From Siphonodentalium dalli (lineage: Eukaryota > Mollusca > Scaphopoda > Gadilida > Siphonodentaliidae), in assembly GCA_032622095.1 (NCBI GenBank), contig CP136062.1, forward strand, positions 32,860,918-32,924,917: a DNA stretch of 64,000 nt, written 5' to 3'. The notes under the pieces were generated by a model, which saw nothing but the letters and a program-made list of their open reading frames with translations, ran no database searches and was not told where the DNA came from. The translations under genes were made by a program, and so were the position numbers. How positions within the stretch are numbered: position 1 is the stretch's first letter; each line of letters starts with the position of its first letter. This document shows, one piece after another, positions 1,836 through 43,911 of the stretch.

Positions 1836-2560
1836 TTTAATCTCAATAAACCAATACATATGGTATATGTGAGATATACAAATGTAACTACAAATACACG
1901 ACAAAAGCACATTTAACAGGTTCATACTTATATAATACTAGCTGGTGGACCCGACTTCGTCCGGGCTGTTTCCCCTCTGCTTTTCGGCGAATTGCGACCA
2001 TTTTGAAGGTCAAGGTCAGGTCGGGGTCACGATTTGACCTTTCCAAAACACTCACTGGCAAAAGTACCCGACAAAAGTACCCGTCGAAATCGTCCGCTTT
2101 TACCCGATTTGACCTTGAATTGACCATTTTGAAGGTCAATGTCAGGTTGGGATCACGATTTGACCTTGAATTGACAATTTTGAAGGTCAAGGTCAGGTCG
2201 GGGTAACGATTTGACCCGTCCAAAATACTCCCCGGACAAAATTACCTCTAGCCGTCCCGTTTTACCCGATTTGACCTTGAATTGACATTTAGAAGGTCAA
2301 GGTCAGATCGGGGTCACGATTTGACCCGTCCAAAACACTCCCTGAACAAAATTATCCCTAGTTATCAAATTTCGTCAAAATTCGTCTGGCAGTTTTCCCG
2401 GCCATAGCTAACACACAGACAAACAAACAGACAGACAGACAGAAATCCCAAAATATATATTAGATATAATATATGTAATATTAATATACATATATGCATC
2501 AAAGGCATTGACGTCACAACCACCCAGAACTTATGTCATGAAACTTTTAAGTGTGAGCGA
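1836..2560. repeat. Dispersed repeat split by a Helitron
   Basis: Sequence 1836-1937 plus 2465-2560 matches 52165-52350 in order and orientation, sharing blocks such as GACAAAAGCACATTTAACAGG and AACTTATGTCATGAAA. The copy near 52.2 kb is uninterrupted, so it serves as a paralogous empty site for the Helitron at 1938-2464. The identity of the host repeat is unknown. Confidence 0.7.
1938..2464 (-). mobile_element. Non-autonomous Helitron (solo copy)
   Basis: Read on the minus strand, the element starts TCTAATATATATTTTGGGA at 2464 and ends CTAG at 1938. A CCCGGACGAAGTCGGG hairpin lies about 8 nt before the CTAG. The flanks are A at the 5' end and T at the 3' end, as for Helitron insertion between A and T without target duplication. 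The interior is tandem-like blocks of TTGACC...AAGGTCAAGGTCAGGTCG and a CAGA-rich 5' subterminal tract. No Rep/helicase frame is present, so it would depend on an autonomous relative. The uninterrupted paralogous site near 52262-52285 supports the boundaries. Confidence 0.85.
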
Positions 2561-17221: not shown

Positions 17222-17414
17222 GCATGAAGCATTCCTGAACATATATAATTTTAAGAATATTTCAATCATGGCTGCTATTGAAGCATTCCTGAACATATAT
17301 AATTTTAAGAATATTTTAATCATGGCTGCCCATGAAGCATTCCTGAACATATATAATTTTAAGAAATTTTTTAATCATGGCTGCTCATGGAGCATTCCTG
17401 AACATATATAATTT
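17222..17414. repeat. Divergent leading units of the 42 bp array
   Basis: Four copies of a longer (~52-58 bp) variant in which GAAGCATTCCTGAACATATA replaces the usual CATGTTTCACACCAC block before TTTTAAGAATATTTTAATC. They mark the array's left edge. Confidence 0.8.
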
Positions 17415-19612
17415 TAAGAATATCTTAATCATGGCTGCTCGTATTTCACACCACTTTAAGAATATATTACTAATGGCTGCTCATGTTTCACACCACTTTA
17501 AGAATATTTTAATCATGGCTGCTCATGTTTTACACCACTTTAAGAATATTTTAATCATGGCTGCTCATGTTTTACATCACTTTAACAATATTTTAATCAT
17601 GGCTGCTTATGTTTCACACCACTTTAAGAATATTTTAATCATGGCTGCTCATGTTTCACACCACTTTAAGAATATTTTAATCATGGCTGCTCATGTTTCA
17701 CATGACTTTAAGAATATTTTAATCGTGGCTGCCCATGTTTCACACCACTTTAAGAATATTTTAATCATGGCTGCTCATGTTTCACACCACTTTAAGAATA
17801 TTTTAATCATGGCTGCTCATGTTTCACACCACTTTAAGAATATTTTAATCATGGCTGCTCATGTTTCACATGACTTTAAGAATATTTTAATCATGGCTGC
17901 TCATGTTTCACACCACATTATGAATATTTTAATCAATGCGCTCATGTTTCACACCACTTTAAGAATATTTTAATCATGGCTGCGCATGTTTCACATGACT
18001 TTAAGAATATTTTAATCATCGCTGCCCATGTTTCACACCACTTTAAGAATATTTTAATCATGGCTGCTCATGTTTCACACCACATTATGAATATTTTAAT
18101 CAATGCGCTCATGTTTCACACCACTTTAAGAATATTTTAATCATGGCTGCTCATGTTTCACATGACTTTAAGAATATTTTAATCATGGCTGCTCATGTTT
18201 CACACCACTTTAAGAATATTTTAATCATGGCTGCTCATGTTTCACACCACTTTAAGAATATTTTAATCATGGCTGCTCATGTTTCACACCACTTTAAGAA
18301 TATATTACTAATGTCTGCTCGTGTTTCACACCACTTTAAGAATATTTTAATTATGGCTGCTCATGTTTCATACCACTTTAAGAATATTTTAATCATGGCT
18401 GCTCATGTTTCACACCACTTTAATAATATTTTAATCATGGCTGCTTTAAGAATATTTTAATCATGGCTGCCCATGTTTTACACCACTTTAAGAATGTTTT
18501 AATCGTGGCTGCTCATCTTTCACACCACTTTAAGAATATTTTAATCATGGCTGCTCATGTTTCACACCACTTTAAGAATATTTTAATCATGGCTGCTCAT
18601 GTTTCACACCACTTTAAGAATATTTTAATCATGGCTGCTCATGTTTCACACCACTTTAAGAATATTTTAATCATGGCTGCTCATCTTTCACACCACTTTA
18701 ACAATAGTTTAGTCATGGCTGCTCATGTTTCACACCACTTTAAGAATGTTTTAATCGTGGCTGCTCATCTTTCACACCACTTTAAGAATATTTTAATCAT
18801 GGCTGCTCATGTTTCACACCACTTTAAGAATATTTTAATCATGGCTGCTCATCTTTCACACCACTTTAACAATAGTTTAGTCATGGCTGCTCATGTTTCA
18901 CACCACTTTAAGAATGTTTTAATCGTGGCTGCTCATCTTTCACACCACTTTAAGAATATTTTAATCATGGCTGCTCATGTTTCACACCACTTTAAGAATA
19001 TTTTAATCATGGCTGCTCATGTTTCACACCACTTTAAGAATATTTTAATCATGGCTGCTCATGTTTCACACCACTTTAAGAATATTTTAATCATGGCTGC
19101 TCATCTTTCACACCACTTTAACAATAGTTTAGTCATGGCTGCTCATGTTTCACACCACTTTAAGAATATTTTAATCGTGGCTGCTCATCTTTCACACCAC
19201 ATTAAGAATATTTTAATCATGGCTGCTCATGTTTCACACCACTTTAAGAAAATTTTAATCATGGCTGCTCATCTTTCACACCACTTTAACAATAGTTTAG
19301 TCATGGCTGCTCATGTTTCACACCACTTTAAGAATGTTTTAATCGTGGCTGCTCATCTTTCACACCACTTTAACAATATTTTAATCGTGGCTGCCCATAT
19401 TTCACACCACTTTAAGAATATTTTAATCATGGCTGCTCATGTTTCACACCACTTTAAGAATATTTTAATCATGGCTGCTCATGTTTCACACCACTTTAAG
19501 AATATTTTAATTATGGCTGCTCATGTTTCACACCACTTTAATAATATTTTAATTATGGCTGCTCATGTTTCACACCACTTTAAGAATATTTTAATCACGG
19601 CTGCTCATGTTT
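17415..19612 (+). repeat. 42 bp minisatellite, ~52 copies, frame-preserving
   Basis: The unit is GCTGCTCATGTTTCACACCA followed by CTTTAAGAATATTTTAATCATG. Because 42 is a multiple of three, one frame stays open over long spans (17377-17973 and 18463-19629) and would read as repeats of AAHVSHHFKNILIM. From about 18480 on, a higher-order pattern appears: a unit with CATCTTTCAC...AACAATAGTTTAGTCATG alternates with GAATGTTTTAATCGTG units every four to seven monomers. Nothing else suggests expression, so I treat it as satellite DNA. Confidence 0.9.
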
Positions 19613-35320: not shown

Positions 35321-35431
35321 CTGCATGCAAAACATGATTAATTTACTATATGCGATGTGTATTTGTTATGATCGAAATTTTAGATAGCGATATTCGTATT
35401 TTGAGTTCAGATGTCCGCCTTTTATATAATA

Positions 35432-36063
35432 CTAGCAGAGGGACCCGACTTCGTCCGGGCTGTTTCCCCTCTGCTTATCGGCGAATTGCGCGATTTGACC
35501 TTGAATTGTCCATTTTGAAGGTCAATGTGAGGTGGGGTCACGATTTGACCCGTCCAAAACACTGCCCGGACAAAAGTACCCGACAAAAGTACCCGTCTAA
35601 ATGCATCCGGGTTTACCCGATTTGACCTTGAGTTGATCATTTTGAAGGTCGAGGTCAGGTCGGGGTCACAATTTGACCCGTCCAAAACACTCAGTGGACA
35701 AATGTAACCCTATGTATCAAATTTCGTGGAAATCCCATAAAATTCGCGATCTGACCTTGAATTGACCCGATTTCAAGGTCAATGTCACGTCACACGGGCA
35801 AATGAATAGGCTTATGACACTCCCCATACGAAAGTATCCCTAGACACTAATTTTCATCAAAATCCCGTGATACTCGGGCGTTTGACCTTGAAATGACCCG
35901 ATTTCAAGGTCAATGTCACGTCGCACGGGCAAATTGATATGCCCATGCCACTCCCCGGCCGAAAGTACCCCCACATACCAAGTTTCATCGAAATCGGCTA
36001 GGCCGTTTTCGAGTCCATCGCGAACACACACACACAGACAGATTTCCCAAAATATATAATAGA
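35432..36063 (-). mobile_element. Helitron array, unit 1 (3'-most on minus)
   Basis: It reads from TCTATTATATATTTTGGGAA at 36063 to CTAG at 35432, with a CCCGGACGAAGTCGGG hairpin before the end and T as the next base. The interior consists of TTGACC...TTGAAGGTCAA blocks as in the solo copy at 1938-2464. An outer CAGAGGG/CCCTCTG pair could extend the terminal hairpin. No coding region. Confidence 0.9.
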
Positions 36064-36661
36064 CTAGCAGGTGACCCGACTTCGTCCGGGCTTTGACCTT
36101 GAATTGACCATGTTGAATGTCAAGGTCAGGTCGTGGTCACGATTTGACCCGTCGAAAACATTCCCCCGATAAAAATATCCCTAGGTATAAATTTCGTCGA
36201 AATCCGTTAATTTTTTAATTTAATTTGAGTTAATTCTGCCTTTTTAATTTTGCCTTTAAATGATGGTACCCGTCCCGTTATCGTACCCGTCCCTAAAAGA
36301 GGTACGTTTGTGTGTACCCGTTTTACGTCACACAACACGCTCATGTCTGGATACAGTCTTACACGCACACGCCCAGACCCAGACGTAAAAATCACATTAC
36401 ACACATACGCTCTTTATCGACGACACTGCGGATACGAACGCTCTTTAACTATCAAAGCGATTAACCCCGCCGTGCCAATGGCGGTAATTTTTTGTGACTG
36501 GGAGTGGAGAATGTGTGCTCTGACGTTCTCAGAAGCGGTGCGATGACACTTCATCTGGGATTTTACCCTTAGATAGGAAGTTTGGGCTCAATCCGTCGGG
36601 CAGTTTTCGAGTCCATCGCGAACACACACACACAGACAGATCTTCCAAAATATATAATAGA
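36064..36661 (-). mobile_element. Helitron array, unit 2
   Basis: It starts TCTATTATATATTTTGGAAG and ends CTAG at 36064, directly abutting the TC start of unit 1. It has the same type of terminal hairpin. About 380 bp of unrelated sequence near 36200-36580 occupies the interior. No coding region. Confidence 0.9.
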
Positions 36662-37155
36662 CTAGCCGATGAGCCCGACGTTGTCCGAGCTATTCAAAAA
36701 CCAAATTTCAAGTCGATAGCTCCACCCGTTTCCGAGATCTGGTTTGCGCATGCGCGAAGCTGGTGTCGCACGGACTCGGCGACCCGATAAAATTCGTATC
36801 CGGGGCAAGATATATTCACACACCAAATTTCAAGTCGATAGCTCCACCCGTTTCCGAGATCCGGTCTGCGCATGCGCGAAGCTGGCGCCGCACGGGCTCG
36901 GCGACCCGATAAAATTCGTATCCGGGGCAAGATACATTCACATACCAAATTTCAAGTCGATAGCTCCACCCGTTTCCGAGATCTCGTCTGCGCATGCACG
37001 AAGCGGGCGCTGCACGGGCTCACCAATACGACAACGTCGACCGCCTGGTCAAACTACACACACGTACCGAGTTTCGTCCCGATCGGTCGAGAATCGTAGA
37101 TTTGTATAAATGACAGACAAACATACAGACAGAGGTCTTCAAAATATATATGAGA
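36662..37155 (-). mobile_element. Helitron array, unit 3
   Basis: It starts TCTCATATATATTTTGAAGA and ends CTAG at 36662, abutting unit 2, with a GCTCGGACAACGTCGGGC hairpin. The interior differs from units 1-2: it holds ~122 bp tandem subrepeats with TTTCAAGTCGATAGCTCCAC and TGCGCATGCGCGAAG. Confidence 0.9.
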
Positions 37156-37995
37156 CTAGCCGATGAGCCCGACGTTGTCCGGGCTATTCAAAAACCAAAT
37201 TTCAAGTCGATAGCTCCACCCGTTTCAAAAACCAAATTTCAAGTCGATAACTCTACCCGTTTCCGATATCTGGTCTGCGCATGCGCGAAGCTGGTGTCGC
37301 ACGGGCTCGGCGACCCGATAAAATTCGTATCCGGGGCAAGATACATTCACATACCAAATTTCAAGTCGATAGCTCCATCCGTTTCCGAGATCTCGTCTGC
37401 GCATGCGCGAAGCTGGTGTCGCACGGGCTCGGCGACCCGATAAAATTCGCATCCGGGGCAAGATACATTCACATAGCAAATTTCAAGTCGATAGCTCCAC
37501 CCGTTTCCGAGATCTCGTCTCATACCAAATTTCAAGTCGATCGCTCTACCCGTTTTCGAGATCTGGTCTGCGCATGCGCGAAGCTGGCGTCGCACGGGCT
37601 CGGCGACCCGATACAATTCGTATCCGGGGAAAGATACATTCACATACCAAATTTCAAGTCGATAGCTCCACCCGTTTCCGAGATCTCGTCTGCGCATGCG
37701 CGAAGCTGGTGTCGCACGGGCTCGGCGACCCGATAAAATTCGCATCCGAGGCAAGATACATTCACATAGCAAATTTCAAGTCGATAGCTCCACCCGTTTC
37801 CGAGATCTCGTCTGCGCATGCGCGAAGCGGGCGCCGCACGGGCTCGCCAATACGACAACGACGACCGCCTGGTCAAACTACACCCACGTACCAAGTTTCG
37901 TCCCGATCGGTCAAGAATCGTAGATTTGTATTAATGACAGACAGACAGACAAACATACATACATACAGACAGAGGTCTTCAAAATATATATGAGA
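37156..37995 (-). mobile_element. Helitron array, unit 4 (5'-most on minus)
   Basis: Same family as unit 3, longer because it carries about five 122 bp subrepeats. It starts TC at 37995, preceded on the minus strand by A (complement of 37996), and ends CTAG at 37156 against the start of unit 3. The hairpin is GCCCGGACAACGTCGGGC. Long apparent frames here (for example 37403-37993) arise from the subrepeats. Confidence 0.9.
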
Positions 37996-39803
37996 TATCT
38001 TCACAAAATCAAGTGTTGTGTGCGTGTGTGCATCTGAGTGTTTATCTGTCACGATTTTGGCGTGTCTAGAAATGCATATGCACCAGCGAAGATATTTTCC
38101 TACATGTCATGTTTATCACCAGTCAATGCCCGCCTCTACTTAAAGGGGTATTTATGAGTTTCTTATCAGCTTAGTATGTATGGAATTGGTCATGGCAAGG
38201 GGGGGGGGGGTGTCATGGAATACGAACATTTGACCTCATATGACTTAAATGGGTCTGATAAATTGCATGATTAATATATGATTGTCCGTTTAATATCAGC
38301 TCAGGAAAAAATGTGAGAAAATCGGTGCACATGCCGAGGTAACATGTCGCGAAAAATGTCTCAGGATAGGTGCCGTTGTCATGATTAAAATATGCACCAA
38401 TAATTAGCCAAACAGGGCGTTTATTATCAGCTCGTTCACATAATGTTACTGCATCATTGGCCGTCAAAAATTACGAGTGACAAACATGACATGCAGGCTG
38501 CAGTCATGTTTGTCACCTGTCATTTTTGACGACCACCCCCCTAGTGTTCCATAATATCCACCTGACAGCTCAAGTCTTCTATTTAACTGTAACATTAAAC
38601 GCTGATTAATTTTGCTGGTCATTCAGTTATGGAAGTGTGAGACGCTCACGATATTTCATTGATTGTACCATGCTTTCTGTCGTGTAGAATATATTGTAAT
38701 ACTAAAGTTCGCCAACATTTCCACATAATCGGGACAATACTTCGAAGTAGGGTCGTATTACGAGAACTTAAGGGGTTATAACGTTAAATTATGTGCTTCA
38801 CACCTATATTAAAAAAAAACAGTCAAAGTCTTTAAAATATACTTTGTATAATACATTGTATGTTTACCACAAATTAATTAAAAAAATTAGATAGACATCA
38901 TATGACAAGGCCATTCTACTTATTTCGGCATTTGAATTGGGTTTTAAGAATTTCACTAGACTTAAAACAGTGTAGTTTATACCTATTATATATTTCTAAT
39001 CATATACATTGGTGGAATATATCTAGTGTGAATCCGATAACATAAGCATAACCGAGCATAAATCACATATTGGTGAGGTAAGTCCATCGGGTCTCTGGCC
39101 AAAAGTAATAGTGCCAAACATGTGGGTTCGGGCATCGCCATTTTTTTCGAGCACGAGGTTGATCGTTGAGACGAAGGTTACACAAGGGTTATCTATTATA
39201 TGTATGTATATTCATGACGGTCGCTCGGTAAATTTCAATTGAGTGAAATTTTTTAAAATGTGCATCTAAAACATTAGAGTGGAATCAGGTAGTTGCTTAG
39301 TGTGAGCTTTTGGTTCGTAATATGCATTACACAACCTCAGGGAAAAGCCTAAAATATTGACTGAAATGGTAAAATGTTCTAATCTAGTCAAAAGCATCAT
39401 CTAATTTGACACTAAACTATTCATTGTGAGATAACCAGTTATATAAATCAATCTCTACCTGTTTTCGATCTGAAAAATATGTCATATGTTTGTGTTATGT
39501 TTTATGCCAGCGGCTATCTAAAGGGCAACAAAGGAATACAGAATAGTAAATCTGCTGGTTGTTCTGTCGTCATGCATATATTGTTTTGCACATAATAAGA
39601 GTATACCATATGTGTCTGCACATCTCCATGGCAGGTAGCTGTCACACACATTAAAGGATTACTCCGGTCTAGCTTTGTTTTATTGTTATCGATCGCCGCT
39701 AATCCACTGAGCACGGTGCCGAAAATTTATTTGTGATAGGCTCCCGTAACTGAAGTTATGCCCATGTATAGATCCATCATGGACTATGCAGTCTGAATAG
39801 TTA
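37996..39803. other. Non-coding stretch with one hairpin
   Basis: A G-run lies at 38200-38210. A minus 84-codon frame (38213-38467) is unrecognised and internally repetitive (GAGCTGATA(A/T)TAAACG twice). Nothing else supported. Confidence 0.4.
38463..38530. repeat. Short palindrome
   Basis: GTCAAAAATTACGAGTGACA and TGTCACCTGTCATTTTTGAC are inverted around a GCAGGCTGC centre; the arms also share AAACATGAC. Confidence 0.75.
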
Positions 39804-41105: not shown

Positions 41106-41756
41106 ATGGACGAAACACAAATAGAAAGAAGGATACAAGACGCGATTAAAAAATCACAAGACGACATGTTAGAGAAATTGGGGAAAGTGATAACTACGAA
41201 CTTTAGCACGCTTGTTTCCAGTCAACGACAGATGCAAACGTCGAACACAGACACATACACATTTAAAAAACGTGCACACGAAGAGCAGTTCACGTTAAAC
41301 TCTGAAGTTCAAAACAGGATGGCACAAGCCAAACACCACATGGAACAGAGCGAGCAGAATACAGAGGATGCTTTAAGCGCATTGCGAGAAGGTTTGGACT
41401 TAATAAAACATAGACAGAAGCTGATAAAACTAGCTGATTCTTCGGATTTGGGATGGAAAGTGGTAGACGAGTATCAGAGGCACAGCCTAGCTGACGATTC
41501 CGATGACGAGAAAAGGATTAGGAAGGCCATGAGCCAAGCCAAGCTGAAGGAAAAGGAGAAGAAGAAAAAAGTTCGACATGCACCATATAGTGTACCTGTT
41601 TCATCTTCTGTGTCGTCATCCAGGATAGCATCAGCGTCCACACCAGGAGGGAGGAAACCAGGGAGCTGTTTTCTCTGTCTAGAAGCTGGCCACTGGAAAT
41701 TCGAGTGTCCAAAAAGAGGCCGGAGGGGCTGTTCGGGAAAGAAGCTCAATGCATGA
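41106..41756 (+). CDS. Gag-like protein with zinc knuckle
   Basis: An intact 216-residue frame starts at an ATG one base after the A1 repeat (AAAATGG context). Residues 1-130 are polar and helical with coiled-coil character. A Lys/Glu-rich stretch (KEKEKKKK) and a Ser-rich linker follow. The C-terminus has a CX2CX4HX4C zinc knuckle (CFLCLEAGHWKFEC) and a basic tail, as in nucleocapsid-type proteins that bind the element RNA. The stop overlaps the pol start in ATGCATGA (41749-41756), so pol is probably translated by reinitiation or a frameshift. This is the only undamaged frame of the element. Confidence 0.8.
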   Translation: MDETQIERRIQDAIKKSQDDMLEKLGKVITTNFSTLVSSQRQMQTSNTDTYTFKKRAHEEQFTLNSEVQNRMAQAKHHMEQSEQNTEDALSALREGLDLIKHRQKLIKLADSSDLGWKVVDEYQRHSLADDSDDEKRIRKAMSQAKLKEKEKKKKVRHAPYSVPVSSSVSSSRIASASTPGGRKPGSCFLCLEAGHWKFECPKRGRRGCSGKKLNA

Positions 41757-43911
41757 GCTTAACGTAGAGTCCCATGGGCTTATACAACAAGACGTTCGCC
41801 ACAAGCAAATTACTGACGTGGGAGATATAAAGGGTTGTGTAAAAATTTGGGAGGAAGCAGGGGCTTCAGATTACATAATTTCTGTCATAAATAGCGGGTA
41901 CCGTTTACCTTTTGTTGATGAGCCAACAGCCAAAGTTTTGAATAATAACAAATCTTCCCGGGATAACGCTGATTTTGTAAATCAGGCAATCAAAACATTA
42001 GTAGATAAAGGTTGTGTTTCTGTGGTCGATTATATGCCGACAGTTGTCAACCCATTGACAGTTGCCATAAACAGAAATGGCAAGAAACGATTAGTCTTGG
42101 ACTGTAGACATCTCAACGAGCATCTTGCAAAATATAAATTCCGCCTTGAGGACGGGTCAGTCGCAAGGCTGATACTTGAAATTAATGATTACGTGTTTGA
42201 TTTTGATTTAGAATCTGCATACCATCATATTTGTATAGATCCGATGTACAGAAAGTACTTGGGTTTCAGCTGGATATATGAAGGGCAGTGTATATGTACA
42301 TATTTTGTTTTTAATGTTTTGCCTTTCGGAATTTCGAGTGCAGCCCAGTTATTCACGAAAATCACCAGAGTGATGTTGAAATCATGGAGAAGCGACGGTT
42401 GCAAAGAAGTAATGTATTTAGACGACGGATTAGCGGGCGCGTCCGATTTCGACGCGGCGTTAACTTTAAGCAAGCGAATACAAAACGATATTAGAAAGTT
42501 CGGTTTTGTATCTTCGGTAGAAAAATCGCATTGAATTCCTACCCAGAACATCATATGGCTGGGCTTAGAATGGGATTTCAAAACTGGTACAGTCAGTGTT
42601 TCTCACGAGACAATTGAGGTTTTTTGCGGAGCAATAAACAAGTTGAGTAACGTCATTAGCGCTAATGGTGGCAAAGTTTCCGCTAGAGCTTTGGCAGGCA
42701 TTTTAGGCCAATTGTCGTCCATGAACGGTGCAATAAACGCACAAATTGGTTTAAAAACCAGATTTTTACATATATGTCTGTCCGATAAAACGAGTTGGAA
42801 TGCATCGGTGCATATAAGCGAAGATGCGCGATGAGAACTCGAGTATTGGGCGAGAAATATCGAAAGCGTGAATGGTCAGGACTTGCTTAAGTCGGAACGC
42901 GACTTGATCGCGGGTAGCGTTTACACGGACGCGTCGGGAACCGGTTACGGCGGATTCATTATTTTAGAATCAGTTTGTTCCGAAAACATGGACGCATACA
43001 CACAGCACAATGCATGTATTGCAAAGCGACCAGAAGAAGCGCTAAATCGTGTAGCCCAAGGTCGCGGACGGCGTTCAGGACGCCCAAGGATAGCACCAGG
43101 TGCTAGCGAATCGCATAACAATGCTTTTCTAAATGAGGCCCCGGGCCTAGAGGTCTTCGGGACCTAGTCAGCTTCCGAAGCTGACAGAAGCTCTACGTGG
43201 AGAGAGTTAGAAACCGTGAACCGATTTTGCAAATCGAAAGTGGAGATAATGTCAGGCGGGACATACAAGTTATACACAGATAACAAAGCCACAGTGAGCG
43301 TGATAAAAAAGGGTAGCAATAAAGAGCATTTACACAGGGTTGCTATCGATATAGACGCGACGTGCTCCGAGCACAGAATCGCGTTGGTACCCGAATGGAT
43401 TCCCAGGGAATTCAACGAGAGCGCGGACGCTCTGAGTCGCAAATTTGACTCTGACGATTGGAAAATTTCAGAAAACATTTTCATGAAGCTAGACAATGTT
43501 TGGGGCCCTCATTCGGTAGACAGATTTTCAACAGATTATAATGCGCAGTTGAATATGTTCAACTCAAGGTGGTGGTGTCCGGGTACAGAGGGTGTGGACG
43601 CAATGAAACACAGTTGGAGCGGGGAAAACAACTGGATTGTTCCACCTCCGAAAAAAGTAACTGAAGTTCTGAGAAAAGTTCACAGAGATAACTGTGAGGC
43701 CACTTTAGTATTTCCGATTTGGAAGTCAGCACCATTTTGGCCACTCATTGAAAACGAAATAAATGAGCGGAAATTGGCATCGCCAGTGATGGACCTCGGA
43801 GGTATGTGCGTAGTTTCTCCGGGGAGGGGAGACAACGGCATTTTTGGCCGGAGAACATTACCGTTCTCAATGGGGCCGATGCATATATATATTAAGGACA
43901 TTTTACCATAG
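41749..43911 (+). pseudogene. Pol: reverse transcriptase and RNase H with three in-frame stops
   Basis: One reading frame of 720 codons runs from the ATG overlapping gag to the TAG at 43909. In-frame stops lie at 42532 (TGA), 42832 (TGA) and 43165 (TAG). The reverse transcriptase is visible at residues about 95-260: LVLDCRHLNEHL, VFDFDLESAYHHI, the VLPFGISSA block, and the catalytic YLDD at about residue 222. RNase H follows: the YTDASGTGYGG aspartate (codon at 42928), the STWREL glutamate (about 43204), the LYTDNKA aspartate (about 43273), and ADALSR. The ~60 residues between the first Asp and Glu of RNase H are Arg/Gly-rich and poorly conserved. No integrase domain follows. The element cannot make a full polymerase from this copy unless the stops are read through. 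Confidence 0.85.

Follow-up and report, generated by a model that had tools for sequence, protein, structure and literature searches.

In this study, we analyzed a tandem array of Helitron transposons in a 64,000-nucleotide stretch of the genome of the scaphopod Siphonodentalium dalli (C2:32860918-32924917 in a 2.23-Gb assembly of nine contigs; the whole stretch is called the window below). Reading the minus strand from position 37995 to position 35432, four canonical non-autonomous Helitrons abut with zero spacer. All four begin with TCT and end with a GC-rich palindrome followed by CTAG. The outer, 5′-most unit u4 (37156–37995, 840 bp) reads TCTCATATATAT...CTAG and belongs to a family termed B here, as does u3 (36662–37155, 494 bp). 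They are followed by u2 (36064–36661, 598 bp) and by the 3′-most unit u1 (35432–36063, 632 bp), both assigned to a family termed A. With ^ marking a boundary, the three internal junctions are exact and read CTAG^TCTCATATAT between u4 and u3 (B to B, 37155–37156), CTAG^TCTATTATAT between u3 and u2 (B to A, 36661–36662) and CTAG^TC between u2 and u1 (A to A, 36063–36064). The A and T bases of the target are present at the outer edges of the array only. At the 5′ edge, the host A of a single A^T target lies at position 37996 within GAAGATA^TC. The 3′ edge reads CTAG^TATTATATAAAAGG, and there the host T with its A/T tract (35420–35431, minus strand; TATTATATAAAA, 12 bp in all) is followed by GG, which fits the 12-bp target tract of other arrays. 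A first-pass annotation of the window had described four tandem minus-strand units of the form TC...hairpin-CTAG, exact CTAG^TC junctions at these three places, an A^T target restricted to the outer edges, and different interiors in u1–u2 and u3–u4; on all of these points it was confirmed, the hairpin core being found in each of the four units.

Family A is characterized by the 5′ end TCTATTATATAT and the 3′ core GACGAAGTC, family B by the 5′ end TCTCATATATAT and the 3′ core GACAACGTC. The 3′ hairpin cores were located on the minus strand at 37168–37183 in u4 (CCCGGACAACGTCGGG), at 36674–36689 in u3 (CTCGGACAACGTCGGG), and at 36075–36090 in u2 and 35444–35459 in u1 (both CCCGGACGAAGTCGGG). With 0–3 mismatches, the core occurs five times in the window compared to a shuffle mean of 0.11, namely once per array unit and once in a lone, unstacked A-family relative (1938–2464, minus strand; A^TCTAATATATATTTTGGG ... 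CTAG^TATTATATAA) that sits between A and T. A stem was predicted near the 3′ end of all four units. The folding energy of the 3′ ends was unexceptional for u1–u3 (z −0.99, −0.62 and −0.24) and reached z −2.01 for u4; folding contributed little to the interpretation, and a search against Rfam gave no match. The units were classified as canonical Helitrons (Helitron1) based on TC/CTRR termini, present as TC...CTAG in 4/4 units, on a short palindrome about 10–15 nt before the 3′ end, and on insertion between A and T without target-site duplication, as judged from the edges of occupied sites. Membership in the Helentrons or HINEs was rejected; according to PMC5148889 these are defined by insertion in TT, and the target of the array is A^T.

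The interiors of u1 and u2 differ from those of u3 and u4, nor are the members within each pair copies of one another. Between u1 and u2, the 5′ 63 bp match with 95% identity, the last 29–30 bp with 93%, and further patches with 82–84%. An alignment of u3 and u4 over 472 bp shows 91% identity, and the two units (494 vs 840 bp) differ in the copy number of an internal repeat of ~122 bp. No two units of the array are copies of each other. Among the candidates scored, the best relatives of u1 elsewhere in the genome were 94% identical. The regular period of a tandem satellite is not seen, as the units measure 840, 494, 598 and 632 bp and have unlike interiors.

The first-pass annotation had proposed a search of the genome for other CTAG-TC junctions. 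This was done by exact-pattern searches of the whole genome with reversed patterns as controls, and junctions are denoted below as upstream-downstream. We found 4,094 A-A, 6,396 B-B, 2,838 B-A and 505 A-B junctions, which amounts to 13,833 exact junctions for both families together; each of the four controls gave 0. For the sequence upstream of exact 17-bp A-family 5′ ends, only the classes A and CTAG were counted, other preceding bases staying outside the count. Here, 5,716 ends were preceded by A (control 1) and 7,035 by CTAG (control 0), so that 55% of these 12,751 ends have a unit end directly upstream. A-type 3′ ends followed by T and a non-C base numbered 10,154, a value in which stack ends and solitary copies are pooled. 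A search for head-to-head junctions, in which an A start is preceded by an A or B start in reverse (joins to A starts only), gave 0 exact 24-bp matches. Zero-spacer stacking is common in this genome. A few other loci resemble a locally amplified tandem satellite. At C1:188850292-188868848, 17 A-B junctions occur at a near-regular spacing of roughly 1.06 or 1.19 kb, which gives the impression of a satellite grown from an amplified Helitron dimer. Further dense junction clusters were seen at C2:103.71–103.75 Mb (A-B) and C1:31.74–31.83 Mb (B-B).

To compare neighboring units, 80 loci were hand-picked from the first 100 listed matches of each of the four junction searches. In this non-random sample, 79 of the 80 loci come from C1 positions below 62.1 Mb, and the proportion of mixed stacks is a product of the hand choice of loci. 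Together with the window array, the loci were parsed into 179 complete units, in which aA and bB denote units with A or B at both ends. Five segmental-duplicate loci (L034, L013, L020, L059 and L061) were excluded from neighbor similarity, logo and edge counts, the flank profile, direction and the count of 61 pairs; they were kept for the nearest-relative test, unit dating, and the age and position test of a tail variant. Hybrid units, whose 5′ and 3′ ends come from different families, were noticed in L018 (5′a/3′B, about 1302–2117) and L023 (5′b/3′A, about 2339–2836). L034 (about 1291–2089) was listed among them as well, either as a unit with ends of both families or because its B-like 3′ region contains an A-type hairpin. 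All three coordinate ranges follow the element strand; for L018 and L034 this is the reverse complement of the locus.

For units that have a same-family neighbor in their array, the nearest relative within the sample was this neighbor in 3/54 aA units (0.71 expected) and 2/56 bB units (0.79 expected). In the 29 A-A pairs, mean neighbor similarity was 0.45 compared to 0.39 after permutation (p 0.077), and none of these pairs was ≥95% identical over ≥80% of the shorter unit (0.17 expected by permutation). At 90% identity the counts match the permutation for both families (aA 2/29 vs 1.9; bB 20/32 vs 19.2). A best aligned stretch of any length above 95% was present in 9/61 pairs, and 5/61 pairs reached ≥95% over ≥80% of the shorter unit. 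Similarity was below 0.3 in 12/29 aA pairs and 2/32 bB pairs. Partner sharing across loci also did not exceed chance in the A-A pairs (Mantel r 0.006, 29 pairs) or in the B-A pairs (Mantel r −0.25 and 0 repeated dimers, 18 pairs). A-A and B-A stacks behave as independent insertions. As a separate observation, L036, L063 and L068 carry similar B-B dimers of about 380 + 390 bp with flanks that are unshared within the sample; these could be moved composites or members of an abundant subfamily.

The stacks have a direction. Genome-wide, B-A junctions are 5.6-fold commoner than A-B junctions (2,838 vs 505), and after merging listed places within 20 kb on C1 up to 78 Mb, 74 B-A clusters stand against 5 A-B clusters. 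As a proxy for age, we used the private differences of a unit from the majority of its 4–8 closest relatives at other loci, omitting the unit ends that had served as search patterns. By this measure 164 of the 179 units were datable, with a mean private divergence of 3.9% for aA and 2.6% for bB units. The 5′ unit was the less diverged one in 48/71 neighbor pairs (sign test p 0.004, Wilcoxon p 0.007), among them 14/16 B-A pairs. When the two ends of a stack were compared, the lower divergence lay with the outermost 5′ unit in 38/48 stacks (permutation of the order within stacks, p 0.0018). In the window array, private divergence was 2.6% for u4 (17/657), 2.7% for u3 (11/410) and 4.3% for u1 (23/539). 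Much of the age signal arises because B units are less diverged than A units and lie 5′ of them. A variant of family A with a long tail after the hairpin is more diverged than the other A units (5.1% vs 3.6%, p 0.003); judged by eye, it was present in 9/100 listed upstream units compared to 23/100 listed 3′ ends at a host T (Fisher p 0.011), a distribution that is suggestive as a sign of direction. Stacks probably tend to run from younger units at the 5′ side to older units at the 3′ side.

The preferred target was derived as a logo from 66 edges on the 5′ side and 51 on the 3′ side, with every CTAG^ or ^TC edge classed as a junction and not as an outer edge. Outer 5′ edges carried A in 60/66 sampled cases; of the others, G was found in five, where mutated CTAG-like ends were readable, and T in one. 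Outer 3′ edges carried T in 49/51 cases. From +1 to +12 the 3′ flank is 86–98% A/T, and at +13 the share drops to 59%; the 5′ flank shows a short gradient only. Of the first 15 positions of the A-family left end, all but the C of TC are A/T, and the end thus resembles this target. A similar preference is known from Helraiser, with an AT-rich insertion bias strongest 3′ of the site and an AT-rich stretch close to where the left end is cleaved (PMC4778049).

Matches to PF14214 were found at at least 151 places in the genome (150 of 457 candidates scored), and four of these RepHel loci were fetched. L082 contains an open frame of 1,697 amino acids with Helitron_like_N (PF14214) and PIF1 helicase domains and has an A-type 3′ end (...GGTCAAAGCCCAGACGAAGTCGGGTCACCTTCTAG^T). 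L084 contains an open frame of 1,650 amino acids with the same two kinds of domain and a B-type 3′ end. Thus, two of the four fetched loci combine RepHel frames with A- or B-type 3′ ends. In the fetched stretches, the 5′ ends of L082 and L084 were not recognized, with only weak matches upstream (4–5 substitutions, none after A), and the RepHel loci L081 and L083 had no A or B hairpin. A third Helitron family was seen at L081:5840-5960, where the 3′ end of the RepHel copy, CCCGTCATTTTGTGACGGGCAACCCCCTAG, is directly followed by TCTATATATATAAAA. By eye, TCT follows 48/100 listed 3′ ends of this family, many of them clustered, and the third family seems to stack as well.

Based on these results, we consider it probable (roughly 0.77) that the array in the window represents four independent insertions of canonical non-autonomous Helitrons, which arrived stepwise, the later ones each at the A^T on the 5′ side of a copy already present. 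In this order of events, which we infer together with the enzymology of the RepHel protein, the A-family unit u1 would be the founder copy and would have inserted between a host A and T. Then u2, and after it the B-family units u3 and u4, would each have landed at an A^T whose A belonged to the host and whose T was the first base of the copy outermost at the time. Each step would yield A^TC...CTAG^TC...CTAG^T, that is, an exact junction without remnant and a restored A^T at the outer 5′ edge. Growth would run towards the 5′ side, because the site at the 3′ edge is G^T and not A^T. Repeated targeting of the terminus, one of the two possibilities offered by the first-pass annotation, fits the zero spacer and the outer A and T, as both are expected from insertion at a resident 5′ A^T. 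The same annotation had named A/T remnants between units as the mark of stepwise insertions; this mark fails, since insertion at the 5′ A^T leaves none.

With regard to the enzyme, the left end (TC with its AT tract) would serve the transposase as its own cleavage site and at the same time come close to its preferred target (A^T with a 12-bp AT tract). RepHel, which would cut A^TC at donors, may also nick resident left ends and use them as one-strand landing sites. The lack of head-to-head junctions would fit, because landing of RepHel would then be confined to one orientation. For the more general claim, namely that the left end is the favourite landing site of the transposase, that resident copies act as one-directional docks which have been hit at more than half of the counted intact A-family 5′ ends, and that stacks form a record in which the youngest unit lies at the 5′ side, we see a chance only slightly better than even. 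Random nesting as the origin of the junctions was rejected: we estimate, by extrapolation from counts in one window, that about 10.3 million sites in the genome score at least as high on the logo as the A-family left end, yet 7,035 of the 12,751 exact A starts have CTAG upstream.

Several results weigh against stepwise insertion at the left end or limit its reach. On the logo, the left ends score 7.7 (A) and 5.6 (B) compared to a median of 9.2 for real targets, the latter being scored on the training set. Sequence alone is therefore insufficient for targeting, because the left ends lie below the target median and about 10.3 million sites equal the A end. The B-B stacks deviate from independence: neighbors had a mean similarity of 0.66 vs 0.60 after permutation (32 bB pairs, p 0.016), 5/32 pairs were ≥95% identical over ≥80% of the shorter unit (1.7 expected, p 0.015), partners were shared across loci slightly more than by chance (Mantel r 0.19, 32 pairs, p 0.045), and dimers were repeated at different loci in 14 cases vs 8.9 expected (p 0.07). 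As B-B neighbors are closer than chance, a minority of the B-B pairs was probably duplicated, concatenated or moved together as composites. Among five paralogous locus pairs, a difference in unit number was seen in two (L006/L034 and L061/L071) over the stretches fetched; in both it concerns an internal unit, and in no pair a new unit at the 5′ end. Recombination or duplication also alters the number of units in some arrays, because the partners of these two pairs differ by an internal unit. The age trend is weak within same-family runs alone (permutation p 0.053; 5′ unit less diverged in 16/23 aA-aA and 17/29 bB-bB pairs), an A-start unit lies 5′ of a B-start unit in 3/23 mixed stacks, and the test of the long-tail variant gave 9/66 vs 22/82 (p 0.067) after merging clustered places and p 0.17 in the sampled arrays. 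In the window array, u2 is not datable by the age proxy, and no empty or partly filled allele was seen, none being available. The paralogous loci L061 (C1:1.02 Mb) and L071 (C1:22.7 Mb), which have common flanks with one unit more in L071, are useful for studying the gain or loss of units.

Of the alternatives, composite transposition survives best, although we regard it as unlikely for the window array. Here, a pre-formed mixed array would have been mobilized as a whole, with its internal terminators skipped, and inserted once. Bypass of the terminator is documented for Helitrons (PMC4778049), hybrid units exist in L018 and L023, and the recurrence of similar B-B dimers across loci described above gives a weak hint. 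However, a second copy of the whole window array was not found among 40 scored of 17,236 candidates, and in the 18 B-A pairs a B unit and its A neighbor were not inherited as a linked pair; as the main route, composite transposition is not supported for B-A stacks. Less probable still is an origin of the stack from one or two founders by local tandem duplication or unequal crossing-over. The internal-unit differences of L061/L071 and L006/L034 and the near-regular period of some clusters, such as the A-B cluster at C1:188.85 Mb (about 1.06–1.19 kb), argue for such events elsewhere, but this origin leaves the unlike neighbors (12/29 aA and 2/32 bB pairs with a similarity below 0.3), the exact-ended B-A junctions and the canonical outer A and T unexplained.

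The other possibility named by the first-pass annotation was a single insertion of a rolling-circle multimer, derived from a circular intermediate that ran past the termination hairpin. This is very improbable for the array. Circles of Helraiser do carry the exact CTAG-TC junction, and tandem arrays are cited as support for rolling circles (PMC5876387). In the sample, the two B units of L026 are 98.7% identical end to end, the sole pair of this kind, and the excess of close B-B neighbors (5/32 vs 1.7) would also fit. Against this stand the unlike units of the window array, no two of which are copies, the missing excess of close pairs in A-A stacks (0/29 at ≥95%), the random-like neighbors in A-A and B-A stacks, and the direction of the arrays; a concatemer from one donor predicts neither B 5′ of A (2,838 vs 505) nor an age gradient. 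A read-through concatemer was therefore rejected at the window locus, where the units are diverged, and is not supported for A-A and B-A pairs; it is possible for a minority of the B-B pairs. A further possibility is that the units were added one by one on the 3′ side, where CTAG and the host T form a G^T; for a maize pair, this was one of the two orders discussed (PMC2267711). It requires GT, a non-canonical target, and the youngest unit should then lie on the 3′ side, whereas the outer 5′ unit is the less diverged one in 38/48 stacks and the less diverged B units lie mostly upstream of A units. The probability of this order is close to negligible.

Earlier reports of tandem Helitrons concern bats, Drosophila, rice, maize and fungi (PMC5876387, PMC5148889, PMC2267711). 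Both stepwise and rolling-circle mechanisms were proposed earlier; new is the genome-scale evidence. At the maize r1 locus, an exact CTAG^TC junction (G/T) joins two unlike Helitrons as in the window, and consecutive insertion was proposed, with the host A and the initial T of the copy already present as one possible target (Du et al. 2008, PMC2267711). There, the order was left unresolved in the text of PMC2267711 for one pair, whereas here 13,833 exact junctions in two families are available and the direction was measured. Bat tandem Helitrons (Pritham and Feschotte 2007, via PMC2267711 and PMC5876387) have perfect head-to-tail junctions in common with the array described here. As told in PMC2267711, the bat study read them as tandem repeats, expecting an A between independent insertions; this expectation fails, because insertion at the 5′ A^T leaves no intervening A.

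Helraiser and Helibat1 share with the elements described here TC...CTAG ends, an A^T target, a preference for AT-rich sequence biased to the 3′ side, an AT-rich left end, and a RepHel nuclease-helicase; the difference is that Helraiser is a reconstructed active element studied in cell culture (PMC4778049, PMC5876387). In the accessible text of these two papers, we saw no measure of self-targeting by Helraiser. In Metarhizium acridum, a Helitron triple likewise consists of three copies in tandem, for which two insertions into the 5′ end or rolling-circle replication were offered; it is a single case of non-canonical Helitrons, and its mechanism was not settled in PMC5148889. An active wheat Helitron family forms circles, and polymerase chain reaction in the part of that study available found no genomic tandem copies of one element (PMC13286980). 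A genome-scale test of stack direction or of left-end targeting was not found in the literature covered, which is weak evidence of absence, as subscription papers were mostly outside the coverage.

In the bacterial IS200/IS605 family (IS608), the target is the site that the enzyme cleaves at the left end, which leads to head-to-tail stacking beside a resident left end. By analogy, RepHel may work alike in using its own left-end site as target, with the difference that the bacterial system is without a helicase.

The value of the window array is that it allows the stepwise and the multimer mechanism to be told apart. A head-to-tail junction alone is not evidence of a multimer, because most of the sampled A-A and B-A stacks look like independent left-end insertions. 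If the left end is indeed the favourite landing site, tandem arrays cited for rolling-circle multimers would in many cases consist of insertions that arrived independently and stacked up, and satellite DNA would be seeded by such stacks. If self-targeting is confirmed, the donor-cleavage site of the enzyme would be tied to the choice of target, many insertions would be diverted into existing copies and away from host DNA, and the insertions in a stack would be ordered in time, offering a route from dispersed elements to satellite arrays.

Two further features of the window were noticed outside the Helitron array. At 17413–19612 lies a tandem array with a 42-bp unit and about 52 copies, which is partly an open frame encoding MAAHVSHHFKNILI repeats. 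Retroelement-like frames are located at 41106–43911, the middle one of which matches a reverse transcriptase (PF00078, 2.9e-12); the frame preceding it has no Pfam match and, by eye, a zinc-knuckle-like C-terminus.

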